Assembly (NCBI GenBank): GCA_947644305.1 | Contig: CANRYS010000022.1 | Location: 1-49,366 of the forward strand | Length of the DNA stretch: 49,366 nt | Reading direction: 5' to 3' | Origin: an uncultured Roseburia sp. | GTDB lineage: Bacteria > Bacillota > Clostridia > Lachnospirales > Lachnospiraceae | In this document: in pieces, positions 21,061 through 45,761 of the stretch | Layout: each line of letters begins with the position of its first letter | Position numbering within the stretch: the stretch's first letter is position 1 | Made by a program: the position numbers and the translations under genes | The notes under the pieces: model-generated | Told to the model about the DNA's origin: nothing | The model's database searches: none | Seen by the model: the letters and a program-made list of their open reading frames with translations, nothing else

Positions 21061-21330
21061 CTCGACGGTGCGAATTTGAACCCGTTTCTCAACCAGCTAT
21101 TTTGTGAATGCGTTCGTTAGTTTCAATCGCCGTAGCCACCGCTACGACTCATTCAACTGCCTTCGCATTCGCAAAATAACTGGTTTGAAATCTTCGACCG
21201 TGTGTGGTGTATTTTGGCGAAGAACAAGGCTAGAGGACGAAGTCTTGCTGACGCAAGACAAGGACGAAAAACGAAGTAGTTCGCCAAAATACGCCGTTCA
21301 CGGCGGGTTCAAATTCGCGCCGTCGAGCTA
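21058..21330. mobile_element. 269-bp palindromic TA-flanked element (long form, copy A)
   Basis: Ends TAGCTCGACGGTGCGAATTT and AAATTCGCGCCGTCGAGCTA are inverted repeats of 27 bp with one mismatch. The element measures 269 bp between TA pairs (21058-21059 and 21329-21330). Inside are two further long hairpins. Arm 1 (AACCAG...CTGGTT, 21091-21185) is tipped by CGTAGC/GCTACG. Arm 2 (GTATTTTGGCGAA/TTCGCCAAAATAC, 21209-21292) is tipped by GTCTTGC/GCAAGAC. It has no transposase gene and resembles a MITE or structured RNA. It is the same length and plan as the copy at 33958. Confidence 0.88.
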
Positions 21331-25208: not shown

Positions 25209-25282
25209 TAATTTATAGTTTGACATAAAATTGACAAAAATACATTGAGATAGGAAAAAATGAAAGTATTAAAAAGTTATGA

Positions 25283-26005
25283 ATGTATAATTCTCTCCTT
25301 TCGTTTCTTGAAAATTCTGCTGCCATTACGATAGGGATGGTTTCTGACTTTTTGACGTATGATCCGGTATTTTCCCAGACAAGCGGCGCTTCCCATTTTA
25401 TCAACATATTGAAATATGACAGTGATAAAATGAGATTTTATATTGCAGATGGAGATGTTCCCTCTGCAGAAACAGGAACTTATTTCGGGTGGCTGGAAGA
25501 GAGTGATGTCTTGAAGGGATGGGAGATAAAGTGTGGTGAAATTTTTGTTCTAAAACTGCCAGAAGGCCTGGATCGGGAAAAGTTTTGTCAGCGCGTCCGG
25601 GAAGAGGCGAATTCTCAGGTAAAGCGGTCAATTAAATGTTATTTAGATGGTACAGATCATTTCTGGCTAAGCCGCTCAACTGGCGAGAAAGCGATTTCCT
25701 GCATGGTGAAAGAAATGGGAAGATATGTAGAAAAAAGAGACTTTAGAGATATAACAATAGATGCCAATTTTCGTCTGAGGGTAGATGGATATATGGGGGC
25801 AAAGAAATTTTTATTAGAGAAGCTTTGGGAACAGGGAAAAATTAAGTTGGCAGAAGAATATAAAGTTCTCATCGATCGATGGTCAAAATGGTGCATGTTG
25901 CTGTTAAAAAGCGGATTAGTAGCAACGCCGGAGAATTTTTCCTTTGTAAAACAAAGAATGGAGGAACTGGTTCAACAGGAGCATCAAATATTGGAGAAAT
26001 ATTAA
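25283..26005 (+). CDS. BtrH-like cluster protein, start probably frameshifted
   Basis: The open frame codes 240 residues (MYNSLLSFLENSAAITIGMV ...). ATG 25283 has no ribosome-binding site. An ATG at 25260 (MKVLKSYEC) has AGGAAAAA upstream, and one extra base after GAATG (25285) would join it as SYECYNSLLSFL. That would give the Cys-then-hydrophobic-helix start seen in BtrH-type N-terminal domains and also in the protein at 33774. The middle has HFINILKYDSDKMRFYIADGD, and the helical C-terminus (WSKWCMLLLKSG ... EHQILEKY) also fits that family. BtrH-type enzymes transfer aminoacyl groups from carrier proteins. The assignment is tentative, from pattern and context only. It is the first gene of the cluster, 13 bases before the decarboxylase. 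Confidence 0.5.
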   Translation: MYNSLLSFLENSAAITIGMVSDFLTYDPVFSQTSGASHFINILKYDSDKMRFYIADGDVPSAETGTYFGWLEESDVLKGWEIKCGEIFVLKLPEGLDREKFCQRVREEANSQVKRSIKCYLDGTDHFWLSRSTGEKAISCMVKEMGRYVEKRDFRDITIDANFRLRVDGYMGAKKFLLEKLWEQGKIKLAEEYKVLIDRWSKWCMLLLKSGLVATPENFSFVKQRMEELVQQEHQILEKY

Positions 26006-26017
26006 CAGGTGATAGAC

Positions 26018-27214
26018 ATGACAGAAGATATTCAAAAGAAAGCCATTCAGGAATATGGTTCCCCATTGTATCTTTATGATTTGGATCAATTCAGACTCAA
26101 TATAGATAAACTTAGAGAGAATCTGTTTCCTGAAAGCGGTTTATTTTTTTCTGTGAAGGCAAATCCATTATCTGCATTTTCCAGCATAGCCTGTGAGAAA
26201 AGTTGTGGCGTAGAAATAGCATCTGGAGGGGAGCTGGAGCGGGCACTAGATAGTGGTGCTGCTCCTGGAAATATCGTGTTTACCGGACCAGGGAAAACAG
26301 AAAGTGAGTTACTGCAGGCCATCGATGCACAAATTTATATGATTCATGTAGAATCTCTCCGGGAGATACGAATCATCAATCAGTTAGCGGAGGGGAAGAA
26401 CCGCAATGTACCCATTGCACTTCGTATTAATCCCGATGGAATAAATCCATCGGGGAGAGTGCAGATGAGTGGAACTGCTTCGCAGTTTGGAATCGAAGAG
26501 ACGGATCTTGATGATAGTTTGTTCGAAGAAATAAATTCCTTAAAAAATGTTAATTTATACGGCGTACATATTTATATGGGGACATCTATATTAAATGCGG
26601 AGGAGATATGTCGGAATACGGAGTATTCGATTCGGCTGGGAATAGAACTTTCTGAAAAATATGCTTTCAAATTAAGATATTTAAATGTAGGTGGGGGATT
26701 TGGCATTCCTTATTTTCCAGGAGAAAAGGCATTAGATTTGACAGCGATGAGAAACGGAATGGAGTTGTTAAATGAAAAATACCAGGAACAGTTACGGGAA
26801 ACAAAATTGTTTTTTGAGAGTGGACGTTTTCTTTTGGCGGAATGTGGATTGTTTATGGTTCGTGTGTTATATCGAAAAGAATCTCGCGGGAATACTTATC
26901 TGGTTTGTGACGGCGGTGCGAATTTCCATGCTGCCTCTGCCTTTTTAGGAAGGTTCGTTCGGGGAAATTTCCCTATGTATGTATTAGGCAAAGAGGGAGC
27001 GGAAAAAGAGTTTTATGTGACGGGACCCTCCTGTACGCCAACGGATCTGCTGGGGCAGAAGGTTATGCTTCCATCGGATACAGATGAAGGTGATATCATT
27101 GTGATAGAAAAGTCTGGAGCATACGGACTTACCTACAGTCCTTATGGTTTTCTGAGCCACAAACTGCCATTGGAGATTGGATACGAAGAAGAAAGTGGGT
27201 TTCATATTTTGTAA
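26018..27214 (+). CDS. PLP-dependent fold-III decarboxylase, BtrK/LysA-like
   Basis: The protein is 398 residues. It belongs to the alanine-racemase-fold decarboxylases. FSVKANP carries the PLP-binding Lys (about residue 47), GVEIASGGEL follows, HIYMGTS carries the active-site His, NVGGGFGIPY the phosphate-binding Gly stretch, ESGRFLLAECG a substrate Arg, and GPSCTPTDLL the Cys from the partner subunit. Diaminopimelate decarboxylase is the classical relative, but the neighbours (ATP-grasp ligase and carrier protein) point to BtrK. In butirosin synthesis BtrK decarboxylates glutamyl-ACP to 4-aminobutyryl-ACP. The amino acid used here cannot be told. ATG 26018 is preferred over GTG 26009, because AGGTG is placed for the former. 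Confidence 0.85.
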   Translation: MTEDIQKKAIQEYGSPLYLYDLDQFRLNIDKLRENLFPESGLFFSVKANPLSAFSSIACEKSCGVEIASGGELERALDSGAAPGNIVFTGPGKTESELLQAIDAQIYMIHVESLREIRIINQLAEGKNRNVPIALRINPDGINPSGRVQMSGTASQFGIEETDLDDSLFEEINSLKNVNLYGVHIYMGTSILNAEEICRNTEYSIRLGIELSEKYAFKLRYLNVGGGFGIPYFPGEKALDLTAMRNGMELLNEKYQEQLRETKLFFESGRFLLAECGLFMVRVLYRKESRGNTYLVCDGGANFHAASAFLGRFVRGNFPMYVLGKEGAEKEFYVTGPSCTPTDLLGQKVMLPSDTDEGDIIVIEKSGAYGLTYSPYGFLSHKLPLEIGYEEESGFHIL

Positions 27215-27229
27215 ATATCTGAAGAGACT

Positions 27230-27267
27230 TAGCTCAACGGTGCGAATTTTAACCCGCCGTTGAGCTA
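27230..27267. repeat. Short TA-flanked palindromic repeat (copy 3)
   Basis: TAGCTCAACGG and CCGTTGAGCTA are perfect complements flanking TGCGAATTTTAACCCG. The element is 34 bp between TA pairs. Compared with copy 1, both arms carry a matched change (CGACG/CGTCG to CAACG/CGTTG). It lies between two cluster genes, just before the ribosome-binding site of the ATP-grasp gene. Confidence 0.9.
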
Positions 27268-27280
27268 AGAAGAGGTGATA

Positions 27281-28546
27281 ATGAATTTTTGCTGGCTGTT
27301 TAATATTGGAATAGAAGATAATTGGTTTGTAGACCGGTTTAAGATGAAAGATCTGGAAGAGGATCGTATTGTGCAGCACATGGAAGAAATTATGTTGATG
27401 ATGGCAGATAGAGATGATACTCTGCTCTTACGCAGGAAACCAAATGACACGTTTTTATGCCAAATGAGATCCTATGGATTTGAAGTGCCAAAAATAATCT
27501 GCCCTAAGAAAGAAGATACAACAAAAACAATTACCCAGCTTGTTCTCGAAGATAATAAGGTACTTTGGGAATTAAAAGAGTTATCTTATAAAAAGGATGT
27601 ACATCTACTTCCCTATGGTGTTACCGAGGATGAGGAAATACTGGCGAAGGAATGTGGTATGGGGTTGATTGGACCGGATTCGACGGTATCTCGTGTTTCT
27701 AATAGCAAATTATATGCAAAAGAACTTGTTAAAAGGCTTCATCTGTCATCGCCAGATGGAAAAGTATGTGAGAATTTTGACCAGATCCGGGAAGAGTGGG
27801 ATCGTCTAAGGAATCAGTTTCGCCGTATCGTCATTAAAAGACCATATGGGGCATCTGGAAGAGGATTATATCTGGTGGAGGATTTTGAGAAGCTGCAAAA
27901 AGTGTTGTATATTTTGAAGCGTTCTGGCAGTGAAAATCAAAAGTGGATCGTAGAGGGTTGGTATGAGGACAAAAAAGATTTAAATACCCAGATGTATATA
28001 TGCGATGATGGCAAAATTAAAATACTTTCAGTAAAGGAACAAATCCTGGAGGGTACTGTATACAAAGGTTCAATTTTTCCAATTGAATTGTCAGTTGATA
28101 TAAAGAGTAAATACTTAACTGCTTTAGAAAGGGCAGGGAGCTGGTTGTACAGGGATGGCATAAGAGGAATTGTCGGCATTGATTCTATCGTGACGGAAAA
28201 AGAAATTTTTCCGATCATTGAGATCAACGTGAGATTTACGCTTTCTACCTATCTGTCTATGTTACCATTGCGATTTCCAGATAGATATTTTTGCTCTATG
28301 TATTATAGGATTTTTTTGTCGGAGAAATGGAACTGCACAGAAATAACAAAAAAACTAGTTCGAGCCGGGCTGGCGTTTGATACGAAAACAAGGGAAGGAA
28401 TATTTTGTTATAATCATGCCTGTGTAGACCGGGATATTTTAGGTAAAGCTGGACGCTTATTTGTCATAATGATTGCAAAGCAAAGGACGGATTTACAAAA
28501 ACTGCGTTTTAAGTTAGAGCAGTTATTGGAGGAGGCAAAATATTGA
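27281..28546 (+). CDS. ATP-grasp amino acid:carrier-protein ligase, BtrJ-like
   Basis: The protein is 421 residues. The ATP-grasp core is visible: IVIKRPYGASGRGLYLVEDF (nucleotide-binding Lys and glycine loop, about residues 186-205), QKWIVEGWYE, and IRGIVGIDSIV...IFPIIEINVRFTLSTY with the metal-binding Glu/Asn pair. BtrJ, the known relative, attaches glutamate (and later a second glutamate) to the carrier protein BtrI with ATP. Sitting between a BtrK-like decarboxylase and an acyl carrier protein, this enzyme should load the amino acid substrate. ATG 27281 is chosen because AGAGGTG lies just upstream. It is one base from the next gene, so translation is coupled. Confidence 0.82.
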   Translation: MNFCWLFNIGIEDNWFVDRFKMKDLEEDRIVQHMEEIMLMMADRDDTLLLRRKPNDTFLCQMRSYGFEVPKIICPKKEDTTKTITQLVLEDNKVLWELKELSYKKDVHLLPYGVTEDEEILAKECGMGLIGPDSTVSRVSNSKLYAKELVKRLHLSSPDGKVCENFDQIREEWDRLRNQFRRIVIKRPYGASGRGLYLVEDFEKLQKVLYILKRSGSENQKWIVEGWYEDKKDLNTQMYICDDGKIKILSVKEQILEGTVYKGSIFPIELSVDIKSKYLTALERAGSWLYRDGIRGIVGIDSIVTEKEIFPIIEINVRFTLSTYLSMLPLRFPDRYFCSMYYRIFLSEKWNCTEITKKLVRAGLAFDTKTREGIFCYNHACVDRDILGKAGRLFVIMIAKQRTDLQKLRFKLEQLLEEAKY

Positions 28547-28547
28547 C

Positions 28548-28787
28548 ATGGAGCTGGAAAAAACGATACGGAACAAGCTGGCAGAAGTGTTAAAGATCGA
28601 GAATCCAGAGGAAATATCTTTGGAAAAGGATTTGAAAGAGTATGGTATGGATTCATTAAATGCCATCGAACTGGTTGTGGCATTAGAAATGGAATTTGGG
28701 ATTGAATTTGCCGAGGATGACTTACTGGTAGACAATCTCTGTACCGTGCAGAAATTAATACTTGTGGTGAGGAAATATTTAGTGTAA
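28548..28787 (+). CDS. Acyl carrier protein 1 (BtrI-like)
   Basis: The protein is 79 residues, four helices. The phosphopantetheine site is the Ser in GMDSLNAIELV (about residue 37). Many acidic residues follow (EFGIEFAEDDLLV). It starts one base after the ATP-grasp gene and is the natural carrier for the aminoacyl group. It is distinct in sequence from the second carrier at 30438, which suggests the two are loaded by different ligases. Confidence 0.93.
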   Translation: MELEKTIRNKLAEVLKIENPEEISLEKDLKEYGMDSLNAIELVVALEMEFGIEFAEDDLLVDNLCTVQKLILVVRKYLV

Positions 28788-28860
28788 TCAAAATCATTTA
28801 TATATATAAGCAGTGGTAAATCAGTCTGTATTTTTCATCTAAGTAAAGGAGGGCAAAGAA

Positions 28861-29523
28861 ATGAAAAAAATATTAAAAAGGAAAAAGATATTAATCACAT
28901 TGGGGACATGTATTGTTATTTTAGGCTTAACTTTTGGAACCGTAAGCATTGCTCAAAATTATTATAAGAGCTCTGGTTCTAGTGAAAAGGAAAAGGCAGT
29001 ATATCAAATGGCTGAAAAAGAAAAAGAGAGATTAAAGGATAGAGGAGCTTATAATCCCAAAGGTCATATTAAAAAGGAAGATCTTGCCCAAAAAGCTGAA
29101 AATGTTGCAGATGTGTTTGATATGAGCGTCAGTGAAGCAGAAAAACGGATTACGAAAAATTCGATTGAGAAAAAAGCTTTATATCTGGCAGCGGAAGAGG
29201 CGGGGATTACCGTTGATGAACAGGAAGTAACAGAAGCAATTGATAAAATAAGGGCCACTTTTGTATCGGATCCAGAAGGTAAGAAAGAGCTTGAGGCTGA
29301 GATCGCAGGTATGGAAATGGATGAAGAGGAGTATTGGAATTTTTTACGTCCACAATACAAGTCAAATATGATAGTCAACAAGTATTTGAATAAAATGTAT
29401 GAAGAGAAATGTAAAGAAGAAAAAATAGATTTATATTCTGAAGAATATATGGAAAAGCGCAAAGAGTGGCGGGATTCCATCGCACAGGAGGCAATTAAAA
29501 AATATAATGTCAAGGTAGAATAA
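28861..29523 (+). CDS. Membrane-anchored SurA/trigger-factor-like protein
   Basis: The protein is 220 residues. An N-terminal basic stretch and one membrane helix (about residues 10-31, ILITLGTCIVILGLTFGTVS) place the rest outside. The remainder is charged and helical. ENVADVFDMSVSEAEKRITKNSIEKKALYLAAEEAGITV, in part, resembles the N-terminal substrate-binding helices of SurA/PrsA-type foldases (ALYLAAEEAGITVDEQEVTEAI). No PPIase domain is present. It may help fold or bind an exported partner. Similar short SurA_N-like proteins occur in clostridial peptide or lipoprotein clusters. AAAGGAGG lies just before ATG 28861. Confidence 0.7.
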   Translation: MKKILKRKKILITLGTCIVILGLTFGTVSIAQNYYKSSGSSEKEKAVYQMAEKEKERLKDRGAYNPKGHIKKEDLAQKAENVADVFDMSVSEAEKRITKNSIEKKALYLAAEEAGITVDEQEVTEAIDKIRATFVSDPEGKKELEAEIAGMEMDEEEYWNFLRPQYKSNMIVNKYLNKMYEEKCKEEKIDLYSEEYMEKRKEWRDSIAQEAIKKYNVKVE

Positions 29524-29557
29524 ACATTGTTATAAGTAATAATGAATTTAGTGCTTA

Positions 29558-29598
29558 TTGGTCAAATTGTTGTTTCAATAAAGTGGCAATTTGACCAA
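29558..29598. promoter_or_regulatory. 12-bp perfect inverted repeat between cluster genes
   Basis: TTGGTCAAATTG (29558-29569) and CAATTTGACCAA (29587-29598) are separated by 17 bases. There is no T run, so an operator or a processing hairpin is more likely than a terminator. It sits 35-44 bases before the lipoprotein gene. Confidence 0.7.
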
Positions 29599-29641
29599 AA
29601 GTACATTTGCATAAATAGTTATTTTGCGAGGAGATACACGG

Positions 29642-30436
29642 ATGAAAAAACGATATTTAGTATTGATAATTAGCATTTTGGTTTTACTATTTGGCTGTGG
29701 AGAAAGGAATACTTCAACTGAGACAAAAAACACGTATCCGCCAGAAAAAACGGACATAGCAAAAGAAATATATTGGGAAAAAAAAGAAGATCTGGGGTTT
29801 CAGAAAACCAGTACTGTTCATTTGGAGTCTAACAAAGATAATACAGGGTTGAAAATTGTAATAGACGGATACCCTGTCAGTTTGGAAAACGAAAAAGAGC
29901 TCACATATCAGAATTTTGACTTTACTAAAATGATAAAAAAGGATTTTGATGAAGATGGAATTATGGAAATCGTTATATTATTTTATGGGGGGGCTAGCGG
30001 GACTTTTCAGAATTTCAGAGTAATAAAATATGATGGGAAAACATGGGGGATGGTAAATATGGGTCAGATAGAAGATACGTGGTCAAATTTCGTAGAGGTG
30101 AAGGCGCTGAAAAATAGTTCAGTGAAGATTGAGGTTAAAAAAACAGAGTATAAAACTACAGTAAAGCTTCCAAACAATAAATATCTTAAAAGAGAAGGAG
30201 AGAAAGCAATTTCGGGTACAGGTTATCATTTCTTTGAATTGCAGAATAATGATATCATTGTGGTCCATCAATTATATCTGAATAATGTGGGGGATGCCTT
30301 TGGACAGGTCAGGCAAAAGATTCATCTCGATGAAAAAGGAACAGAGCTGATACTGGGAGAGACCAGTTATATGTCCCAAAAAGATGCCAAAGGGAGAAAG
30401 TATGAGATGTATGAAGAATTCGTAAGGAGGAAATAA
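29642..30436 (+). CDS. Lipoprotein of unknown function
   Basis: The protein is 264 residues. The signal peptide MKKRYLVLIISILVLLFGCGE ends in lipobox LFGC (Cys at about 18). A motif DFDEDGIMEIVIL (about residues 97-109) resembles an FG-GAP/VCBS calcium-binding Asp-rich loop. The rest is beta-strand-rich with no recognised family. GAGGAG (29628-29633) precedes ATG 29642. It is followed after one base by the second carrier protein gene, so it belongs to the cluster operon. A role in export, immunity or sensing is possible but not shown. Confidence 0.75.
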   Translation: MKKRYLVLIISILVLLFGCGERNTSTETKNTYPPEKTDIAKEIYWEKKEDLGFQKTSTVHLESNKDNTGLKIVIDGYPVSLENEKELTYQNFDFTKMIKKDFDEDGIMEIVILFYGGASGTFQNFRVIKYDGKTWGMVNMGQIEDTWSNFVEVKALKNSSVKIEVKKTEYKTTVKLPNNKYLKREGEKAISGTGYHFFELQNNDIIVVHQLYLNNVGDAFGQVRQKIHLDEKGTELILGETSYMSQKDAKGRKYEMYEEFVRRK

Positions 30437-30437
30437 A

Positions 30438-30683
30438 ATGCAGACGATACGCAGACAGATTATCGATATCATAGAAAAATATGCTGGTAAGGAAGTTGTA
30501 ACAGACGGAGATATCAGCCTGATTGATGATTTGGAGTTTGATTCCCTTCAGCTTGTAGGAGTATTGACAGAGATAGAGGAAAAGTTTCAAATTTCTTTTG
30601 AACAGGGGGAAAAACTATTGGATATGGTGGACAGTCTGGATAAAATAACAGAGTATGTGGAGGAATTCAATGAAATATCGTAA
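30438..30683 (+). CDS. Acyl carrier protein 2
   Basis: The protein is 81 residues. The phosphopantetheine attachment Ser is in LEFDSLQLVGVLTEIE (about residue 36). It lacks the GxDS form of the first carrier and is closer to D-alanine/aryl carrier types (EFDSL). AAGGAGG precedes ATG 30438. It lies directly before an adenylate-forming enzyme, its probable loading partner. Confidence 0.92.
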   Translation: MQTIRRQIIDIIEKYAGKEVVTDGDISLIDDLEFDSLQLVGVLTEIEEKFQISFEQGEKLLDMVDSLDKITEYVEEFNEIS

Positions 30684-30695
30684 GGCAATTATGAG

Positions 30696-32153
30696 ATGAA
30701 GACGAGAGAGCTACATGACTTATGGAATTTTAAAAAATACGCAGACCTGCCAGCAGTTCTGACAGAGGACGGAAAAGAATACCGCTATTCGGAAATTGAC
30801 CTGCTTAGGCAGGAATTTGCTTGCCACATTCAGCCGCATACACTTGTGTTGCTGCTGGCAGATAATGATATCGGAAGTCTGATTGGATATGTGACCTGTC
30901 TTACACATGGCAGTGTACCGATTTTGTTTCCGCAGGAGAGAGATAATACTGGTTTTATCTGTATGGCAGAACATTACTCTCCAGATTATGTGTGGCTGTC
31001 AGAATTACAGTATAGTAGATTGAGACAAGGATTAGATGTTGGATATGAAAGCTGTTTTTTCTTCCTGGGGTACATATTATTGCAAAAGAAGGAAGGAAAG
31101 AAAATCCAACTCCATCCAGACCTGGCGTTATTGCTGCCGACGTCGGGCTCTACCGGCAGTCCAAAACTGGTACGTATAAGCGCTGAAAATATAGCGGCTA
31201 ATACGAGATCCATCTGTGAATATCTGGATCTGACAGAAGCAGACAGGGCAGTTATGTCTCTGCCTATGAGCTATACCTATGGGCTTTCTGTCATAAACAC
31301 TCATCTGTTCGCAGGAGGAAGTATCCTTCTGACAAAGGCAAAGGTAATACTGAGACGTTTCTGGGAGATGGTAAAAAAGTACCATGTTACATTTTTTGCG
31401 GGCGTCCCCTATACCTTTGATTGTATGAAGAAAATACAGGCGGATAGGCTAGAATTAAAGGATCTGCGGATATTGACCCAGGCGGGAGGTAGGCTGTCAG
31501 CGGAGCTGCAGCAGTATTGGGGTAAGTATGCAGAGAAGAAGGGAAAGGAATTTTATGTGATGTACGGGCAGACGGAGGCAACGGCGAGAATCAGTTATCT
31601 GCCGTCAGAGGATTGCTTGAGAAGGATTGAGAGTGTGGGAATACCTGTTCCGGGCAGCTGTATCCAGATAGAAGATGAAGGACATCATATCATTTCCATA
31701 CCGAAACAAGAGGGGGAAGTCGTCTGCATGGGAAAGCAGGTGAGCCTGGGTTATGCAGAAAGTATAGAGGATTTATCTCAGCCAGATCAGAATAAGGGGG
31801 TACTCCATACTGGAGATTTAGGATATTTAGACGAAGAGGGGTATCTTTATATCACGGGAAGGAAAAACAGGTTTGCCAAGATTTATGGAAAGCGGATTGA
31901 CTTAAATGTTTTGGAGAAGCTGGCTAAAGAATATTTTGGCGGAGAGACAGCAGCATTGGCGGATGATAAAAGAATTTATTTATATACCGATGCGGATGTG
32001 ACTGAGGATAAGCTTGAGAAATTACGAAGGCACCTGCCTTTTAGCGTGGATGTCTTTGAAATCCGGGACATGGAAACAGTGCCAAGGAAAAGTTCGGGCA
32101 AGATTGATTACAGAGGAGAAAAGTTATGTTTACAGAGAAACAAAGAAAAATAA
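30696..32153 (+). CDS. AMP-dependent acyl/aryl ligase
   Basis: The protein is 485 residues. It shows adenylation motifs TSGSTGSPKLV (A3, about residues 147-157), YGQTEATARISYLP (A5), GVLHTGDLGYLDEEGYLYITGR (A7-A8, split) and KSSGKIDY with the catalytic Lys (A10). It activates a carboxylic acid as an AMP ester and should load it on the adjacent carrier protein 2. Its size, absence of condensation domains and stand-alone form suggest an aryl or fatty acid. The substrate is not predictable by eye. It overlaps the next gene by 28 bases. The ribosome-binding site before ATG 30696 is weak. Confidence 0.9.
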   Translation: MKTRELHDLWNFKKYADLPAVLTEDGKEYRYSEIDLLRQEFACHIQPHTLVLLLADNDIGSLIGYVTCLTHGSVPILFPQERDNTGFICMAEHYSPDYVWLSELQYSRLRQGLDVGYESCFFFLGYILLQKKEGKKIQLHPDLALLLPTSGSTGSPKLVRISAENIAANTRSICEYLDLTEADRAVMSLPMSYTYGLSVINTHLFAGGSILLTKAKVILRRFWEMVKKYHVTFFAGVPYTFDCMKKIQADRLELKDLRILTQAGGRLSAELQQYWGKYAEKKGKEFYVMYGQTEATARISYLPSEDCLRRIESVGIPVPGSCIQIEDEGHHIISIPKQEGEVVCMGKQVSLGYAESIEDLSQPDQNKGVLHTGDLGYLDEEGYLYITGRKNRFAKIYGKRIDLNVLEKLAKEYFGGETAALADDKRIYLYTDADVTEDKLEKLRRHLPFSVDVFEIRDMETVPRKSSGKIDYRGEKLCLQRNKEK

Positions 32154-33394
32154 TTCGGCATGCCTATCAGACGGTGCCTTTTTATATGGATATTAGCAGG
32201 GAAAAGGGGATTGACTGTGAGAAGTTTGAAGATCTTGCGGACGTTCCTATCGTCAGTAAGGAAGATCTGGTCCTGCGGAATGATTCTTTTATTTCAGCAG
32301 GGCATATGGCGGAATATCTACAGGGAAAGCTGCTACAGACCCATACTTCCGGTTCAACCGGGAAATGCGCCAATATGTTTTGGAATCTAAAGGAATGCAG
32401 GCGTTCTCTGCTGCCGTTGTGGATAAAGAGAAAAAAGTATTATGATATTAATCCACATGACAGGTACTGCTATTTTTATACGGGGAGAAGTGTTGGAGAG
32501 ACTGATATAGAGATAGAGGAAGGGGGATTTGCCCTCGGTTTTTGTAAATGCAATCTGACAGATGAAAAACTGGTACATATATGGGAGAAAATGAGAGAAT
32601 TCGGGCCGGTGTGGATGAACCTGCAGCCAAGTATGGCGATATTATTGTGCCGGGTCATAGAAAAAAACGGGTTGGATCTGATACCTACTCTGCGATATGT
32701 GGAAACAACTGGTGAGATGCTATTTCCGCAGATGCGAAAATACATACAGGAAAAAATGAATGTAGTGCTTGCGGATCAGTATGGCTGCAATGAATTAAAT
32801 TCTCTTGCCTTTGAATGTCCGAAAGGACATCTGCATTGCATGGAGGAAAATGCAGTGATTGAAATTCTTGACGAACAGGGTAATCCACTGCCGGATGGGG
32901 AGGAAGGAGAGATCGTTGTTACCTCCCTGAGTAATTTTGCAATGCCGCTTATCCGTTATAAGATTGGTGACCGGGGATGTTTTTTGAAAGAGACTTGTTC
33001 CTGTGATGATCCCGGGAAAATACTGAAACTGACAACCGGGAGAAGTAATGACTGGGTTGTGGACAGGGAGGGTAATCTGTTAAATGCCTATATTTTTGTC
33101 AGATGTGTTGAAAATATTAACAGGATATTTGAACATGCAATTCTGCAGTTTCAGGTGATTCAGCATGCAGTGGATAAGTTTACAATAAATCTTGTAATCG
33201 ATGAGGAATGTGAATCGGATGAAATATGCCGATACTTTATGGAAAACCTTTGGCAAGGCACCCTTTTGGGGGCCGATTTCCGCATACGGATTTATCCGGA
33301 ATTGATACCAGAGGATAGAAGTGGGAAGCTGAAATGGTTTGTCAGTGAGATGGAGGATAATGTACAAGGAAGAGGAATGGGGTATCATGTTTGA
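32126..33394 (+). CDS. PaaK/CapK-type adenylate-forming enzyme
   Basis: The protein is 422 residues. It is related to phenylacetate-CoA ligase: TVPFYMDISREKGID at the start, the ATP-binding THTSGSTGKCAN (about residues 76-87), DQYGCNELNSLAFECPKGHLH and PLIRYKIGDRG, then LTTGRSNDW. PaaK-like proteins in biosynthetic clusters (CapK type) activate acids or act in acyl transfer. Having both this and a standard AMP ligase in one cluster suggests two different acids are used. RBS GAGGAG lies inside the end of the previous gene. The gene is followed by an 8-base overlap with the membrane protein gene. Confidence 0.88.
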   Translation: MFTEKQRKIIRHAYQTVPFYMDISREKGIDCEKFEDLADVPIVSKEDLVLRNDSFISAGHMAEYLQGKLLQTHTSGSTGKCANMFWNLKECRRSLLPLWIKRKKYYDINPHDRYCYFYTGRSVGETDIEIEEGGFALGFCKCNLTDEKLVHIWEKMREFGPVWMNLQPSMAILLCRVIEKNGLDLIPTLRYVETTGEMLFPQMRKYIQEKMNVVLADQYGCNELNSLAFECPKGHLHCMEENAVIEILDEQGNPLPDGEEGEIVVTSLSNFAMPLIRYKIGDRGCFLKETCSCDDPGKILKLTTGRSNDWVVDREGNLLNAYIFVRCVENINRIFEHAILQFQVIQHAVDKFTINLVIDEECESDEICRYFMENLWQGTLLGADFRIRIYPELIPEDRSGKLKWFVSEMEDNVQGRGMGYHV

Positions 33395-33755
33395 GAATAT
33401 AGCTGTTGGCATTATAACTTTGTTAATCTATGGAATTATCATAACGGGATGTATTATTCCATTCGTTTTCATAGTAAGGACAAAACATAATATTACGAAA
33501 TTTGGTTATGGAAAATATATCTTTATCATTGTAGGGTTGGGGGCTGTACTTCTTTTGGCTGCAGTGCTTATATTGTTCCTGTTGGCAAACTCGTTTTACA
33601 ATTCTAACGCATGGAACAAGCGGGGAATCAATATGGAATTTTTTATCATGTTGTACCAATTGATGCTGAAATATATCCTGCCAGTGTATTTGTTGGTAAT
33701 CGCATTGTCAGGGGTGTATGCGAAATGGAAGGAGAAGCATTCAACTTTAAGATGA
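33387..33755 (+). CDS. Small membrane protein with three predicted helices
   Basis: The protein is 122 residues. Hydrophobic segments lie at about 5-27 (IAVGIITLLIYGIIITGCII), 42-66 (YIFIIVGLGAVLLLAAVLILFLL) and 90-112 (MLKYILPVYLLVIALSGVYA). No family is recognised. The start at 33387 (MFENIAVG) follows GAATGGGG and overlaps the end of the PaaK-like gene, so it is translated with the cluster. It may be an exporter accessory or immunity protein. That is conjecture. Confidence 0.7.
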   Translation: MFENIAVGIITLLIYGIIITGCIIPFVFIVRTKHNITKFGYGKYIFIIVGLGAVLLLAAVLILFLLANSFYNSNAWNKRGINMEFFIMLYQLMLKYILPVYLLVIALSGVYAKWKEKHSTLR

Positions 33756-33773
33756 CCTAAATGGAGATATATT

Positions 33774-35019
33774 ATGGGTGAGTATATAAAAAGAGAAATT
33801 AAACCATTTAACGAATTTTGGATAAACTGTGAATCTACAATGCTTCATTCTCTGTTGATCACACTTGATGAAAAATACCGCGTCATGGCATATACGAATA
33901 ATTATGTATATGAAGTTCTTCATTTTCCAACGCTCAGCCGTAAGTGGGTCAATGAGGTAGCTCGACGGCGCCAATTTGAACCCTGCCTCCGCCTTGTGAT
34001 TTTTCAATTTGCTACGTCAACGTCAATCAACGTACATCCAGTACGTTTCATTCCGTTTCCTTGTAAATTAAAAAATCACAAGAGGAGGTCAGGGATTTCG
34101 AATTGTGATAACAGCAAAATAGCTAGGCGCTTGAATGAGGCGATGCGGTGGTATCGCTGAATGAAAGCAACAACGCTATTTTGCTGTTAGCGCAGGACGA
34201 AACAGGGTTCAAATTGGCGCCGTCGAGCTAAGAGTAAAACCTGAAATAATAGACATTTTTCATGTGGTTCTGAAAAATAAACGTGAAGTGCGGTGGAATG
34301 ATTATGATAAGGCAGTCTGTGAGATAAAGGATTTCCTTAGACAAGGGAAAATAGTTATGGCTGGCGTGGATTTATTTTATTGGATACCGATGAATATGTG
34401 TTACCACAAGCACCATGTGGATCATTATGCTATAATTAACGGTTTTGATGAAGATAAGAATAATTTCTTTGTTATGGATACGGATAATGTGAAATACCAG
34501 GAATTCGAAATGCCGGCAGAGAATGTGATGGAGGCCATTGCGCATTGTGATTTGCATTATGACGCACTTGTATATGATCTATGTACAAGAGAGGAAATTG
34601 AGCCTTACATGTTTGATAAAAAGGAATTGATCTGGCGGGCAAAAAGGATTTATAAGAGCCTCCGGCCGTTGGCCAGGAAATACTTCTGGCTGATGGAGGA
34701 GGATGATTATAAAAAAGGATTTTACAGGGATATGTGTGTCATGTACATATTGCAGATAAATTGCCGGATGAAGGCAAACCGGCTGCTAATTGAATATCTT
34801 ATAGAAAAGGAGATGATAGTGGAATTGGCTCCATTGCAGGAGGATTGTCACCGGATCGAAAGGAAGTGGACCGCTATAAAAAATAAGGTGTCAAAGGCTT
34901 ATTTTGCAGAGAACAGTGTGGCAGAGATGATGAATCTTGGTGAACAGATGATGGAGCAGTTTGAAGAGGAACGAAAGATGTGGAAGGCGTTTATAAAATT
35001 GTATGATAAACGCCGTTGA
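33774..35019 (+). pseudogene. BtrH-like acyltransferase gene interrupted by a 269-bp element
   Basis: The two halves belong together. The first (33774-33957) reads ...FNEFWINCESTMLHSLLITL... with the N-terminal Cys of BtrH-type (C39-like fold) domains. The second (from 34231) reads RVKPEIIDIFHVVLKNKRE, then GVDLFYWIPMN, HHVDHYAIINGFDEDKNNFFVMD (the conserved H/GxDxD-like region), and a helical C-terminus. The element at 33958-34230 splits them. Deleting it with one TA gives GAG GTA AGA GTA, in frame, for an intact protein of about 324 residues. BtrH transfers gamma-glutamyl-aminoacyl groups from a carrier protein. Here the target is unknown. The copy is broken unless the element is removed. 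Confidence 0.8.
33958..34230. mobile_element. 269-bp palindromic TA-flanked element (long form, copy B)
   Basis: The ends TAGCTCGACGGCGCCAATTT and AAATTGGCGCCGTCGAGCTA are perfect inverted repeats (28 bp in all). The element is exactly 269 bp between TA pairs (33958-33959 and 34229-34230). Two inner hairpins repeat the plan of copy A with different sequences: arm 1 pairs CCTCC/GGAGG and GTGATTTTT/AAAAATCAC, tipped by CGTAC/GTACG. Arm 2 pairs AACAGCAAAATAGC with GCTATTTTGCTGTT, tipped by GCGAT/ATCGC. No transposase is encoded. It interrupts the BtrH-like gene. Confidence 0.92.
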
Positions 35020-35062
35020 GGGATGACAAGGATAAAAATTGTAAAGGAGGTACAGGAAACAT

Positions 35063-35098
35063 ATGAGTAATATCTATTTTTCCTGGAAAAGTCTATGA
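35063..35098 (+). CDS. Eleven-codon open frame coupled to the next gene
   Basis: AAAGGAGG (35043-35050) precedes ATG 35063, which codes MSNIYFSWKSL and stops at TGA 35096-35098, overlapping ATG 35095 of the next gene (ATGA). It may be a leader peptide for translational coupling or the stub of a lost gene. No family is recognised. Confidence 0.4.
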   Translation: MSNIYFSWKSL

Positions 35099-35727
35099 AT
35101 AAACAAAAAGGAATTATTATTTGCATCTTACTGGCTTTCATAGTATTGGGCGGCATAGGTATCTGGATTTATGTTTCCGGTAACCCGGCAGACGACACAT
35201 ATTCTGCCTCCTGGGAAGAGAATGGGAATAAAGTTTACTTTAATGAGCCAGATCATGATGCTGTAGCGGCGGCTAAGTTAGCTCTTCCAGATGGGGAAAA
35301 GAAAGAATTAACACTAGAAGAAGTCAACCAGTATTATGGACGTGATATGTCAGACTGTTATATTCCTGAAAATTTGGTGAATAACAATTTAAAAGAAAAA
35401 TTTGATTTTTACTACGATGGGGATAAAGTGACAAGTGACCGAGTTGTACTGTGGTACAGTATAGAGGGAGGGACTGGTCCTAACTATCCATACATGGAGA
35501 TCGAATTCCAGAAGGGAAAGATACCATTGTCGGATATGATATGCGCTGACAACGATATAAAAGAATCTATCATCAACGGAAAAAAGGTAACATTTACAGC
35601 AGAGTTCCCGGAAGGAAGTACAAATTATACAGCAGAGTTCCTTAACAACGAGATTGGGTACAGGGTACAAGGTATTTCAATTTCTCAGGAAGAGTTTATG
35701 AAAGTGATTTATTCCCTGCTTGATTGA
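35095..35727 (+). CDS. Membrane-anchored DUF4367-like protein
   Basis: The protein is 210 residues. One N-terminal membrane helix (about residues 6-27, IIICILLAFIVLGGIGIWIYV) exposes the rest outside. The C-terminal half (VLWYSIEGGTGPNYPYMEIEF ... NEIGYRVQGISISQEEFMKVIYSLL) resembles the DUF4367 fold found in anti-sigma-linked and exported Firmicute proteins. No sigma-factor gene is adjacent. ATG 35095 overlaps a short upstream frame that has the ribosome-binding site. It is the last gene of the first cassette; a terminator follows. Confidence 0.65.
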   Translation: MNKQKGIIICILLAFIVLGGIGIWIYVSGNPADDTYSASWEENGNKVYFNEPDHDAVAAAKLALPDGEKKELTLEEVNQYYGRDMSDCYIPENLVNNNLKEKFDFYYDGDKVTSDRVVLWYSIEGGTGPNYPYMEIEFQKGKIPLSDMICADNDIKESIINGKKVTFTAEFPEGSTNYTAEFLNNEIGYRVQGISISQEEFMKVIYSLLD

Positions 35728-35884: not shown

Positions 35885-35938
35885 ATATATTAACAAATAA
35901 TGAAAAACAAGTTATTATTTAAAATTAGGAGGTACAAA

Positions 35939-37990
35939 ATGAGAAAGGTAAAAAAGAAAACAAATTATTTAGACAAATATAGGAGAATCATTTCATTTTT
36001 CTTAATAATATTACTGCTTTTCGGTTGTATTACGAAGTTAGAACTGAAATATGTAGAAGCAAAGGAATTAACAGTTTATGAAAATAATTCGAATAATGTT
36101 TTTAGTTCCACTAAAGACAATAGTGATGTTGAGCTTTCATATCATATTAATAGCAGTTGGGGTGAACATTATAATGTGGATGTTACACTTACAAATATTA
36201 CAGACGAAAAAATAGATGATTGGGAAATAAAGCTACCTGCTAATTTTTTTATAGAAAATATTTGGAATGCGAGAGTAATGTCTAGTGAGAAAGATAGTTA
36301 TACAATTCATAATGCGGATTGGAATCAAGATATTCCGGTTGAAGGAAAAGTTTCTTTTGGAATGACAATAAAATCTGATAAAAAACCGGATTTGCCGAAG
36401 TATTGTAACACAACTAGAATGTGTCTGGGGGTGATGACAGAGTATAAAGTTGAATATATGGAATATAGTTCATGGGATAATCATATTAATGGTAAGATTA
36501 CCATAACGAATTGTGGAAATAACAGAATTGAAGACTGGAAACTTATGTTAGAAACCAATTTTAATATAGAAAATATTTGGAATGCGACTATTCTTACACA
36601 GGAAGAGGAAGAAAATGTATACTATTATGATATTGACAATGTAGTGAATAATCAAAATATAGAACCACAACAGAGTATTGAATTTGGTTTTATCGCTACA
36701 TGTGATGAGAAACCAAAAATTATTAACTCTGATTTGTTTGAAATGAAAGAATTTACTGATGAAATCAGGGAATCTTGTATGGATATAGATTTAGATGATG
36801 TCAAAGATTATGAGAATGATGAATGTATTTTTGACGCAGATTACTTTGAAACGCCCCAGGAGTATGAAGATTATATTAATGGATTAATTGGGAACAAGAA
36901 AAAAATATCAAGGCAGAGAACAATAAAGGATAATTTATATAGGACCTTAACGGATCCTATTTCTGGAATGCTTATTAAGTCATTTGATTTTTCACCTTCT
37001 GAAAAAGCAATACAAAATTATATGCCTTTAGCTAATGGAATTTATACGTTGCAGCATAGGTCAAATGATAAAGAATCGAAAAAGTATAATGACGCATTAT
37101 TAATGTCAGGAAGTTTAAATGATAATAAGTATTATAATTTTTCTGAAAAAACAAACTTAGTGGGATTCGCCCATGGTCAGACATTTGAACAATTTTGTTG
37201 TAATGGAGTAGGATACTATCTTCTGGCTGGATATGCTAAAAATGGTTTTGCTCGAAATTTAGTGATTATGAAAGAAAAAAAGTTTGAAGAAATTTCTCAT
37301 AAGCAGACATATGATTTTGAAGAGTGGAATAAGAAAAAGAGGTCATTTTTACGACTTACAGGCTTAGAGTGTGCAAATAAAAAGGGCAAAAAAAGTGGAT
37401 CAGGCGAGATACATCGAGTAGATGCTGCGCTTACTGCGGATGGGAAAACCATGGTTATCTGGAAAAAACTCACGAAACCCTCTGTAGTAGAGATTAGTTT
37501 ATATGATATGGATAAAATACAAAAGAAAATTTTAAAAAATAAGTTTGAAAAGGCACTGTCCTTTAGTAATAAATCTACTAGATGGGAATTAAAAAAGGCA
37601 TGTATTGGCTCTTTTTATGAAAAGTATAAGGTTGGTGATGATACTTCAAAACATATTTTACAAGCAAATGACTCATTTCAATCCATTGACATAGAAAATG
37701 CAGGTAAAGATGCTTGGAAAATATTAATTACCAGTGGAAATCAAAAAGTTAAAAAGCCAGTATCAATAACTCGAATCGATTTTAAGAAAGACGGTACAAA
37801 AAAATGTTACAGGGAATATATTTCATTTCCGGGAATTGAAGAAAATGAATTCGATTTTGAGCTTGAAGGCGGACATATAGTTGGAGACAATTTAGATTTT
37901 GTGGTGAAAATGGCTAAAAAGGCGGGGAATGGAAAAGAGCAGTATATAGCAACCATTCCTTTAAAAGATATTAAAACACCCTTAAAATAA
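35939..37990 (+). CDS. Secreted CBM2-type / helveticin-J-like fusion protein
   Basis: The protein is 683 residues. A signal/anchor segment (about residues 17-40, IISFFLIILLLFGCITKLEL) is followed by two tandem domains (about 60-155 and 165-265) of the CBM2 cellulose-binding pattern: SWGEHYNVDVTLTNITDEKI, DDWEIKLP, IWNARV, then SSWDNHINGKITITNCG, EDWKLML, IWNATI. The C-terminal ~330 residues carry YTLQHRSND, GFAHGQTFEQF, FLRLTGLECAN, HRVDAALTADGKTMVIW and VEISLYDMDKI. Their order fits the helveticin-J class III bacteriocin family. This points to a binding-plus-antibacterial protein, by pattern only. ATG 35939 is chosen for AGGAGG upstream. Confidence 0.65.
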   Translation: MRKVKKKTNYLDKYRRIISFFLIILLLFGCITKLELKYVEAKELTVYENNSNNVFSSTKDNSDVELSYHINSSWGEHYNVDVTLTNITDEKIDDWEIKLPANFFIENIWNARVMSSEKDSYTIHNADWNQDIPVEGKVSFGMTIKSDKKPDLPKYCNTTRMCLGVMTEYKVEYMEYSSWDNHINGKITITNCGNNRIEDWKLMLETNFNIENIWNATILTQEEEENVYYYDIDNVVNNQNIEPQQSIEFGFIATCDEKPKIINSDLFEMKEFTDEIRESCMDIDLDDVKDYENDECIFDADYFETPQEYEDYINGLIGNKKKISRQRTIKDNLYRTLTDPISGMLIKSFDFSPSEKAIQNYMPLANGIYTLQHRSNDKESKKYNDALLMSGSLNDNKYYNFSEKTNLVGFAHGQTFEQFCCNGVGYYLLAGYAKNGFARNLVIMKEKKFEEISHKQTYDFEEWNKKKRSFLRLTGLECANKKGKKSGSGEIHRVDAALTADGKTMVIWKKLTKPSVVEISLYDMDKIQKKILKNKFEKALSFSNKSTRWELKKACIGSFYEKYKVGDDTSKHILQANDSFQSIDIENAGKDAWKILITSGNQKVKKPVSITRIDFKKDGTKKCYREYISFPGIEENEFDFELEGGHIVGDNLDFVVKMAKKAGNGKEQYIATIPLKDIKTPLK

Positions 37991-38006
37991 CTAAATTGGA
38001 GGCAAC

Positions 38007-39173
38007 ATGAGAAAACTGATTCATTTAATTTTTGGTATTTGCATTTGTATATGCTTAATAAATGCCATAGAGCAATCATTGAATGCCAAAGAACGCATTC
38101 AATACAGTTTGTCTGAGAAGGGTGTTATTACGTTCTCTGGCAAAGGAACACTTACTTATTATGACCATCGATCTCTGGTATGGGAAGAAAAGGAAAAGAT
38201 TAAGAAAATTGTTATTGGCGAGGGAATAACAGAATTAGAAGAACAGGCGCTGGCTGGTTTTTCTAATGCAGAAAGTATTGTGTTTCCAGATTCATTGACT
38301 AAAATTGGAACAGAATGCTTTAGTAATTGCTATTTACTAAAAGAAATTACATTTGGAAAAAATATCAGAGAAATTGGAGAAAGTGCATTTTCTGGATGTG
38401 TTGCGTTGGAACGTCTGACGATACCAGATACAGTAACTAAAGTAGGCGGGCATGCATTTTATAATTGTAAAAGGTTAAAGGAATTGATTTTGCCAGCTTC
38501 TTTGAAATCATGGAAAAAAAGTGCTGTTAAGCAGTGTCCTCAGCTAAAAAGGATTGTAAATCGTTCAAAAATTTCCTGTGAGATTAATACATATAAAGGG
38601 CTACGGATTTGGTGGGTAAGCGGCAGGAAAATAAGCGTATTACCAAAAGGAAAAACGGCATTGGCCAAAGGGAAGATGATCCCCATTACTTATAAACTGA
38701 AAGGTGGGAAAAGAAACGGAATACTGCCAGGTGCTTATGAGTATGGAACCCGTTTAAAAATACCTTTGAATGTGACGAAAAAGGGATATACAGCTGTTGC
38801 ATGGTACTGTCAGGGAACGGACAGCAATTCAGATATGACATTTTATGTTGGACCCGAAGCGAAAAAAGTGATTCTTACGCCCTTCTGGTATAAATACAAA
38901 ATCGAAAACAAAGAAAATGGTTCTGTTCATGCGATTATTGATATAGAAAATAAAGATTGGGCATATGACAGATATGAAATAAGATATTCTGAGTCTGCTA
39001 ATATGAAAAATTCAACAATTACAACGTTATCTCTGAATAAGGGAAATATCTCAAAGAAGATTACTGGTTTGAAAAAAGGTAAAACTTACTATTTTCAGTT
39101 TCGGGCATATGTAGATGCCGAATCCGGTGCAGGATGCTGGGTCGGAAAACGGAAGGTCAAAATAGTAAGGTAA
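38007..39173 (+). CDS. Secreted BspA-type leucine-rich repeat protein (2)
   Basis: The protein is 388 residues. A signal peptide (about 1-27, ending NAKERI) precedes an N-terminal strand region and about five LRR_5 repeats (about residues 65-190; IPDTVTKVGGHAFYNCKRLKEL). A further beta-rich part has repeats resembling InlB B-type or similar folds (ITYKLKGGKRNG...LPGAYEYGTRLKIP). The C-terminal ~90 residues resemble a fibronectin-III-like domain (YEIRYSESANMKNSTI, LKKGKTYYFQFRAYVD). GGAGG precedes ATG 38007, 16 bases after the CBM2 gene. Confidence 0.85.
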   Translation: MRKLIHLIFGICICICLINAIEQSLNAKERIQYSLSEKGVITFSGKGTLTYYDHRSLVWEEKEKIKKIVIGEGITELEEQALAGFSNAESIVFPDSLTKIGTECFSNCYLLKEITFGKNIREIGESAFSGCVALERLTIPDTVTKVGGHAFYNCKRLKELILPASLKSWKKSAVKQCPQLKRIVNRSKISCEINTYKGLRIWWVSGRKISVLPKGKTALAKGKMIPITYKLKGGKRNGILPGAYEYGTRLKIPLNVTKKGYTAVAWYCQGTDSNSDMTFYVGPEAKKVILTPFWYKYKIENKENGSVHAIIDIENKDWAYDRYEIRYSESANMKNSTITTLSLNKGNISKKITGLKKGKTYYFQFRAYVDAESGAGCWVGKRKVKIVR

Positions 39174-39199
39174 AAGGAGGTGTAAAAAGGAGATATTTC

Positions 39200-41068
39200 A
39201 TGAAAAAAATATTAGTTGTTTTAGTCCTTTTTTGTTGCGTTTTCTTATTGGACTGCCATCCCATTTATGCAGAGGAAACCATAAAAGGCAACTGCGGAGA
39301 ATCGGTTTTCTGGGAATATAATAATGGACTGTTAAGGATTTATGGAAATGGTGAAATGAAAACAAATCCGTGGATGAATTATAAAGACTGCAGAGAAAAT
39401 TTGCGCAAAGTAATCATTGATGAGGGGGTTACCACTGTTTGTGAAAAAGCCTTTAATACTACAAAAGGCGATTCTTTGGAATACGACTATATGGCAGAGG
39501 GGGTTTTCCTGCCAGATACATTAGAACGTATTGGGGAGATGGCATTTGCATTTTCATGGGGATTGAAGGAGATTGATATTCCAGCTGGTGTAAAGAGCAT
39601 TGGTGAAGGAGCGTTTGCGCATTCTTCTAACCTGCAGACCGTTACTTTCTCAAGTGGATGTAAACTGGAAAAAGTAGAGGCTTATACTTTTAGTGGTTGT
39701 AGTGGTCTGGAGAATATTGTGCTGCCAGAAGGTATTTCATATATTGGAGACGGTGCCTTCACAGAATGCAGATCCTTGAAGAAAATTAATCTTCCGGACA
39801 GTGTGAGTAAAATAGGCAAGCGGCTTTTTTATGAATGCTATCTGTTAGAAAGGATTAAAATCCCGGATGGAATTACATCAATTTCCACTGGAATGTTTAT
39901 TAAATGTTATCATTTGACGAAGGTTGAGATGTCAAATAATATTAAAAAAATTGGTTCTTATGCATTTTCATTTTGTTCTAGTTTAGAAAAGGTCAATATC
40001 CCATCAGAGTTAGAGGAGGTAGGAAAACAGGCATTTATCTATTGCGCGGCTTTAGAGGAACTGAATCTTCCCGATACTATAACCAGGATTGGTGTGGATG
40101 CTTTTGAGGGGTGCTCTGGATTGAAGAGGATTCGGTTCCCTCAAAAATTGAAAGAAATCCCGTCAAAAATGCTCTATGACTGCACTGGATTAAAAAAGAT
40201 CAACATCCCGGTTACGGTAACGAAGATTGGGAAAAACGCATTTGGAGGATGTGCCAGTTTAAAAAGATTAGTGATTCCCCCAAATGTTAAAAAAATCGAC
40301 CCGTGCCATCAAGATTGTCCAGGATTAAAGGAAATACTTAATAAATCCAAGGTAACATATTCATTGTCGGCGAGTGAACTTGTAATGAATTGGTACCAGG
40401 GGAAGAAAAGGGTTACGGAAGTAAAGCCGGGAAAGGCAGTTGTTTCTAAAGGAAAACGTTTTCAAATTACATATGATTCTGGATTGCTGAAAAAATACAA
40501 GATAAATGTAAATGGAAAACTCCCGACATCTTATGTGTATGGAAAAGAGCCTAAAATGCCACAGAAGGTAAAGGCGGCTGATTCCAACATACTTTTTATG
40601 GGATGGCGCTATCGGGTAAATAGAAAAAAATATAAGTCTGGTCCGACCCGCACATGGTATAATGCCAGAGTAACACAGTTTAGTAAAGGATTAAAGGGTG
40701 ATGTGAAAGTATTTCCAATGGTAGACAAGGTTATGGTAAGAAAGAATAGCACAAAAAAGGTTGTTATGGTTTCCAAAGTGCTGTTAAAGGATTATTTAAC
40801 CGCGGATAGTATTGATCTCGGATATATTAGCAAAGACCCTGGTCCAAGATATTTAATGTTTCAAGCAAGATATGCAGACAATAAGCACATGAAAAATGCG
40901 AAGTATTTACCTTTGCTTAGTCATGAATGGACAAGAAGATTTGCATTAAAAAACTTAAAAAAAGGAAAGGTATATTACATTCAATATCGAAGTATTCCGT
41001 TTAGATATTTTGGAGTTCCGAGTGAAACCTGCTGGGGGCAGACGTTTAAAGTGAAAATAAAGGAATAG
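39200..41068 (+). CDS. Secreted BspA-type leucine-rich repeat protein (3)
   Basis: The protein is 622 residues. Signal peptide about 1-23 (VVLVLFCCVFLLDCHPIYA). An N-terminal domain with CGESVFWEYNNGLLRIYGNGEM is the usual BspA-associated start. About 14 LRR_5 repeats follow (from LPDTLERIGEMAFAFSWGLKEI through VTKIGKNAFGGCASLKRLVI). The C-terminus (YMFQARYADNKHMKNAKYLP-like, LKKGKVYYIQYRS) is fibronectin-III-like. The start ATG 39200 has AAAGGAG upstream. It is the last gene of the second cassette, and a strong terminator follows. Confidence 0.86.
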   Translation: MKKILVVLVLFCCVFLLDCHPIYAEETIKGNCGESVFWEYNNGLLRIYGNGEMKTNPWMNYKDCRENLRKVIIDEGVTTVCEKAFNTTKGDSLEYDYMAEGVFLPDTLERIGEMAFAFSWGLKEIDIPAGVKSIGEGAFAHSSNLQTVTFSSGCKLEKVEAYTFSGCSGLENIVLPEGISYIGDGAFTECRSLKKINLPDSVSKIGKRLFYECYLLERIKIPDGITSISTGMFIKCYHLTKVEMSNNIKKIGSYAFSFCSSLEKVNIPSELEEVGKQAFIYCAALEELNLPDTITRIGVDAFEGCSGLKRIRFPQKLKEIPSKMLYDCTGLKKINIPVTVTKIGKNAFGGCASLKRLVIPPNVKKIDPCHQDCPGLKEILNKSKVTYSLSASELVMNWYQGKKRVTEVKPGKAVVSKGKRFQITYDSGLLKKYKINVNGKLPTSYVYGKEPKMPQKVKAADSNILFMGWRYRVNRKKYKSGPTRTWYNARVTQFSKGLKGDVKVFPMVDKVMVRKNSTKKVVMVSKVLLKDYLTADSIDLGYISKDPGPRYLMFQARYADNKHMKNAKYLPLLSHEWTRRFALKNLKKGKVYYIQYRSIPFRYFGVPSETCWGQTFKVKIKE

Positions 41069-45703: not shown

Positions 45704-45761
45704 AATTCATTTCCTTTCTAAATATATTTATGGATGATAACTTCTGTTTTACCCCCACTTC

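Follow-up and report, generated by a model that had tools for sequence, protein, structure and literature searches.

Features of the butirosin side-chain pathway include a BtrG-type cyclotransferase and aminoglycoside genes. In this pathway, glutamate is decarboxylated by BtrK while bound to the carrier protein BtrI, as described in PMC7857480, and BtrH-family papain-like proteins were earlier suggested to be transacylases (PMC2922099). For closthioamide, the product of the cta cluster of Ruminiclostridium cellulolyticum, PMC6772006 predicts that the ATP-grasp enzyme CtaD loads beta-alanine on CtaE, that CtaI loads hydroxybenzoate on CtaH, and that CtaG transfers between carriers. Here, these systems are compared with a gene cluster at positions 25260-35727 of a 49,366-nucleotide stretch of DNA (hereafter the window), which is contig C22 (CANRYS010000022.1) of the 3.19 Mb, 99.99% complete genome of an uncultured Roseburia sp. 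(GCA_947644305.1). The cluster lies downstream of rplL with all of its genes on the + strand. It probably represents a Lachnospiraceae variant of an amide-forming, carrier-protein-based assembly line that is independent of nonribosomal peptide synthetases and that is known from closthioamide and partly from butirosin. In the genome studied here, the line is probably broken, as both of its predicted BtrH-like transferase genes are disrupted.

Open reading frames (ORFs) combined with Pfam and NCBIfam profile scans, judged against family cut-offs, gave the gene order BtrH1 remnant, decarboxylase, ATP-grasp ligase, acyl carrier protein 1 (ACP1), SurA_N-like protein, lipoprotein, ACP2, AMP (adenosine monophosphate)-dependent acyl ligase, PaaK-like ligase, membrane protein, split BtrH2, and exported protein. 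The frames of the decarboxylase, the ATP-grasp ligase, both carriers, the AMP ligase, and the PaaK-like ligase are open. The initial annotation had named these genes as a single run and had reported no sugar or aminocyclitol genes; both statements agree with the scans, in which no cluster protein matched sugar, aminocyclitol, aminoglycoside, or BtrG-like families in Pfam. Its view of the second carrier and the AMP ligase as additions peculiar to this cluster did not hold, since two carriers and an acyl ligase are found in the cta cluster too. That cluster was recognized in locus L054 of genome G431, where, in transcription order, chorismate-lyase-like, class-III aminotransferase, AANH-like, ATP-grasp, carrier, decarboxylase, C39-like, carrier, acyl ligase, and transglutaminase-like genes are followed by a last gene judged by eye to be aldo-keto reductase-like; for its AANH-, C39-, and transglutaminase-like genes, the scores fall short of the Pfam cut-offs. 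These functions are, in the same order, those given for CtaA to CtaK in PMC6772006, and residues D77, S78, C154, C157, and C284 of the AANH-like protein correspond to five CtaC residues reported there as mutated. By its content, L054 is thus the cta cluster. Given this match and the transacylase role suggested in PMC2922099, the kind of assembly line is one already known.

The decarboxylase is BtrK-like rather than LysA-like by sequence. Its N-terminal Pfam family, Orn_Arg_deC_N, was matched at 129 bits, and its best relatives among solved structures are two BtrK entries; it is 38.6% identical to BtrK. In maximum-likelihood trees (33 rows without L063, L080, and L101, then 36 rows with all three), the core rows and BtrK were split from the LysA-type rows; the larger tree had 13 core rows and 22 LysA-type rows. 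The motif ESGR occurs in all 13 core rows and in BtrK, and EPGR in 21 of the 22 LysA-type rows; the lone row without EPGR is the LysA-type protein of the window genome itself, which has ELGR, is encoded separately on contig C13, and has a long branch that makes its place in the tree unsure. LysA identity was ruled out as a candidate by the BtrK structure scores, the split, the ESGR motif, and this separate gene, so that the tree comparison suggested with the initial annotation left its assignment of a BtrK-like decarboxylase standing. Support for where BtrK falls relative to the cta decarboxylase is weak (85/52 in the 33-row tree), so the tree is silent on whether decarboxylation takes place on or off the carrier. 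The ATP-grasp protein scored above the cut-offs of ATP-grasp_3, PreAtp-grasp, and PGM1_C, and a ten-row profile of it matched the solved structures 7r8p (an ATP-grasp domain protein), 8ynd (an ATP-grasp peptide ligase), BesA, and PGM1. Its nearest relatives, at similarly weak scores, are thus ATP-grasp proteins of peptide-ligase type along with biotin carboxylases, and not a lysine-pathway enzyme, so the substrate is not readable from the profile. ACP1 is 33% identical to the CtaE-like carrier of L054.

The set of decarboxylase, ATP-grasp ligase, and carrier recurs beyond chance. Among 391 genomes of the class, 11 encode the decarboxylase (E<=1e-80) and 12 the ATP-grasp ligase (E<=1e-30), the former all being among the latter; G408 has the ATP-grasp ligase alone, and the two genes lie apart in G323 and G356. 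They are adjacent in 11 loci (the window, L039, L037, L053, L054, L055, L058, L059, L060, L061, and L101), in every one of which a carrier gene adjoins the ATP-grasp gene. The AMP ligase profile matches 10 of these 11 (not L058, a short contig), as does the BtrH profile (not L054). At the family level, 83 of 299 genomes match the ATP-grasp ligase at E<=0.001; for 80 of these the best match is at most 29 bits and was taken to be a general ATP-grasp enzyme, leaving G000, G108, and G278 as the only family genomes with a match above 29 bits. Within the genus, the ligase was found in 4 of 39 genomes: the window genome, G108, G681, and G701, the coordinates in G701 being those on the contig of L039. 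The window shares with L037 (in G108) and L039 (in G679), both from the same genus, a PaaK-like ligase, a SurA_N-like protein, and two BtrH-like genes. Two BtrH-like genes are also present in L055, L059, L060, and L061; the PaaK-like and SurA_N-like profiles had no match in the other loci scanned for the decarboxylase and ATP-grasp set. Locus L053 is a second cluster with decarboxylase, ATP-grasp, and BtrH genes in G431, beside the cta-like L054, and has relatives in L055, L060, L061, and L101. In G406, a similar cluster (L058) adjoins beta-ketoacyl-ACP synthase III (KAS III)-like and monogalactosyldiacylglycerol (MGDG)-synthase-like genes.

Both BtrH-like genes were described in the initial annotation as encoding proteins of a cluster taken as working. 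The genes themselves are present and are whole in L039 and L037 (BtrH1, 315 and 323 amino acids; BtrH2, 324 and 328 amino acids, respectively), and neither is whole in the window. Relative to L039, BtrH1 has lost exactly 202 bp, which is not a multiple of three. Its ATG at 25260 is followed by 24 codons and then a stop, a 240-amino-acid ORF (25283-26005) without a Pfam match lies in another frame, and the predicted Cys is parted from the His and Asp. BtrH2 is split by an inverted-repeat element, unmentioned earlier, whose 37-nucleotide arms are 89% complementary; L039 presents the empty site, with a single TA and an uninterrupted BtrH2. The window genome contains 11 near-full copies of this element, including that in BtrH2, and many partial ones, of which matches in the window lie at 21058-21162, 21305-21330, and 1646-1671. 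Whole BtrH2 copies score 31.5 (L039) and 34.0 (L037) on BtrH_N, above the cut-off of 29.7 bits, and the 3' part in the window scores 27.7. Across nine BtrH-like sequences, the only invariant columns are Met1, Cys, His, Asp, and Trp, and the invariant Cys/His/Asp fits a papain-like triad; this predicted triad is in no single ORF of the window. Against solved structures, the BtrH profile gave weak matches alone, to Azi29 and AziU3 (E 0.07). A search for a BtrH1 homolog elsewhere in the window genome returned its own remnant alone. Outside its cluster, G679 has further BtrH_N matches on contigs C53, C51, C1, C6, and C3, with the highest score (109 bits) coming from C53. Within the genus, a related locus in G681 (L115, G681:C54:13000-32999) is decayed, with BtrH1 and the decarboxylase each in two ORFs and with no match to the AMP ligase, PaaK-like, SurA_N-like, or BtrH2 proteins within the 20 kb read. 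Thus, 2 of the 4 carrier genomes of the genus show damage, which in either case may also be an assembly fault.

By analogy with the systems above, the intact line would start with loading of an amino acid, possibly glutamate or aspartate, onto ACP1 by the ATP-grasp ligase. Decarboxylation by the BtrK-like enzyme would take place on the carrier, in the manner of BtrK, or precede loading, the order proposed for CtaF. ACP2 may be charged with a carboxylic acid by the AMP ligase. The papain-like BtrH1 and BtrH2 would link acyl to aminoacyl groups through amide bonds and set the product free, and the PaaK-like ligase might activate a second acid or aid release. The loading, decarboxylation, joining, and release steps are thus proposed on the model of better-described lines. 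The enzyme families, the recurring neighborhood, and the disrupted transferase genes, by comparison, are observed. Since BtrH1 is broken by a deletion and BtrH2 by an element, the line most likely cannot finish its product, and the cluster is probably non-functional in the window genome.

A different division of labor, resembling exosortase-A-associated or vicenistatin-like systems, is conceivable, in which the AMP ligase would load the amino acid for the decarboxylase, the ATP-grasp ligase would add a residue later, and the product would decorate a surface polymer or an exported protein. The best NCBIfam models of the decarboxylase (TIGR03099, 348 bits) and of the AMP ligase (TIGR03098, 150 bits) are both exosortase-A-associated, and exported proteins are encoded inside the cluster. 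However, these scores are far under the curated cut-offs of 478 and 592, respectively, and TIGR03099 does not single out exosortase systems because BtrK itself (381 residues) scores 375 on it. Moreover, it is the ATP-grasp gene, not the AMP ligase gene, that adjoins the carrier beside the decarboxylase in 11 of 11 loci, and no cluster protein matched exosortase or polysaccharide families in the Pfam scans. This arrangement is therefore considered unlikely.

Several points weigh against the proposal of a closthioamide-kind line that is broken here. The substrates and the product are putative; the AMP ligase is 21% identical to the CtaI-like ligase of L054; CtaG shows hardly any similarity to the BtrH-like proteins, scoring 9 bits on their profile; whole BtrH1 copies score 23.5 and 22.0 on BtrH_N, below the cut-off; and no transporter family was matched by cluster proteins in Pfam. 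AlphaFold models of BtrH1 (predicted local distance difference test, pLDDT, 44.5; 2-row alignment) and of the ATP-grasp ligase (pLDDT 40.8; 3-row alignment) were too poor for use. The co-occurrence of decarboxylase and ATP-grasp ligase (Fisher's test, 1.7e-20) overstates independence because a single genus supplies 7 of the 11 co-occurring genomes and some of the loci behind the ATP-grasp profile had been found through the decarboxylase; the ACP, AMP ligase, and BtrH profiles likewise come partly from the same loci. Assembly faults could in principle account for both BtrH lesions, and a 344-amino-acid frame on contig C3 of the window genome matches BtrH_N weakly (14.6 bits). The last of these would suit a cluster that still works in this genome through another transferase, the truncated BtrH1, or the split BtrH2. 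The remaining genes are also open, with ratios of nonsynonymous to synonymous substitution (dN/dS) of 0.08 to 0.26 against L039 for eleven cluster genes or parts. These ratios mostly represent selection in the time before the lesions and do not decide present function, no BtrH_N match above the cut-off was found elsewhere in the 99.99%-complete genome, and the predicted triad is split as described above, all of which makes continued function very improbable. That the decarboxylase and ATP-grasp ligase simply serve the lysine pathway or housekeeping, with unrelated genes as neighbors, has next to no probability, for in spite of a superfamily shared with LysA and a lysA model score of 235 bits it is contradicted by the tree (the uncertain place of the genome's own LysA considered), the ESGR motif, the separate LysA-type gene, and the neighborhood recurring in 11 loci.

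The exported or lipid-anchored proteins and the small membrane protein listed by the initial annotation were found again (Table 1). The lipoprotein between the carriers differs among loci, as L037 and L115 have another one (73% identical). A 176-amino-acid exported-looking gene shared by L039 and L037 (55% mutual identity) has no match in the window.

Table 1. Positions of the cluster's genes, gene remnants, and inserted element in the window. MITE, miniature inverted-repeat transposable element; PLP, pyridoxal phosphate.
Feature	Position	Strand	Remarks
BtrH1 remnant	25260..26005	+	Deletion at 25288/25289 relative to L039
Fold-III PLP decarboxylase, BtrK clade	26009..27214	+	BtrK 289 bits, next best 156 bits; tree support 100/100
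ATP-grasp ligase, relative of L054 (CtaD-like) ATP-grasp	27275..28546	+	27% identity, 194 bits
ACP1, GMDSL motif	28548..28787	+	PP-binding 58 bits, above cut-off
Exported SurA_N-like protein	28861..29523	+	SurA_N 23.6 bits, below cut-off 27.2; also in L039 and L037
Predicted lipoprotein	29639..30436	+	No Pfam family, weak NCBIfam lipoprotein models; in L039, no match in L037
ACP2, FDSL motif	30438..30683	+	PP-binding 26 bits, above cut-off
AMP-dependent acyl ligase	30696..32153	+	AMP-binding 137 bits
PaaK-like AMP-dependent ligase	32126..33394	+	Pfam/NCBIfam family matches
Small membrane protein	33387..33755	+	Homolog in L037 at other position; none in L039 at E 1e-3
BtrH2, split	33774..35019	+	ORF 33774-34160 (Cys side) and ORF 34264-35019 (His, Asp side)
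MITE-like inverted-repeat element	33958..34230	.	273 bp with TA at each end; inside BtrH2
Exported protein, cluster membership unsure	35095..35727	+	Homologs in L039 and L115; none found in L037

Regarding the surroundings, rplL (25031) is followed by the cluster and not by rpoB, which is on contig C9 of the window genome; rpoB and the cluster are on different contigs in G108 and G679 too. After the cluster, 35900-41068 encodes a CBM2-type protein together with two leucine-rich repeat proteins of the BspA type. On the - strand, 45104-46703 carries two genes resembling dipicolinate synthase subunits, one with DpaA_N above its cut-off and one with a Flavoprotein match, the latter presumably subunit B. 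Promoter-like sites numbered 43 (shuffled mean 33.8, sd 6.1) and terminators 8 (6.1, sd 2.0), and these were not used as evidence.

With this cluster, the range of closthioamide-like assembly lines comes to include gut Lachnospiraceae; among open-licence papers, no title on such a cluster in gut bacteria was found. It also brings together a PaaK-like ligase, a SurA_N-like protein, and two BtrH-like proteins, a set not found in the other loci compared. A more speculative and rather doubtful extension is that, in a gut-commensal branch of this carrier-protein biosynthesis, both ends of an omega-amino acid are capped by means of two papain-like transferases and two ligases that activate acids, with SurA_N-like and lipoprotein partners acting at the membrane in place of a recognizable transporter, yielding a new product class. 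If this were true, the damage in 2 of the 4 carriers of the genus would mark the product as a costly or social trait, dropped repeatedly by lineages. With the earlier reading of a disrupted cluster as whole now corrected, L039 and L037, not the window genome, are where the product should be sought.

By sequence, the closest whole cluster among those compared is that of closthioamide and not that of butirosin. The likeness to butirosin consists of the BtrK-clade decarboxylase, a carrier, an ATP-grasp ligase (at the family level), and, in the relatives, BtrH_N-type transferases; in contrast, the window cluster has no aminoglycoside or BtrG-like family match and possesses a second carrier and two AMP-forming ligases. 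Clusters of the L055/L060/L061 type (genus g327) resemble it in combining decarboxylase, ATP-grasp ligase, and ACP with AMP ligase, BtrH, and a second ACP, and each has two BtrH-like genes, as do the window, L039, and L037. Their other accessory genes, judged by eye, are type II thioesterase-like, kinase-like, and glycosyltransferase-like, with no PaaK-like or SurA_N-like match. Compared to the closthioamide cluster, the window cluster has no counterparts of CtaA, B, C, J, and K or of the ATP-binding cassette (ABC) transporter, and none of its proteins has an AANH-type Pfam match of the sort that a CtaC-type thioamide synthetase would give; it adds the PaaK-like ligase, two BtrH-like genes, and exported proteins. 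The papain-like transferase genes expected to be intact in such a line are disrupted in the window and whole in L039 and L037. What the window and closthioamide clusters share is a homologous ATP-grasp ligase, a decarboxylase (40% identity), two carriers, an acyl ligase, and a papain/C39-like transferase.

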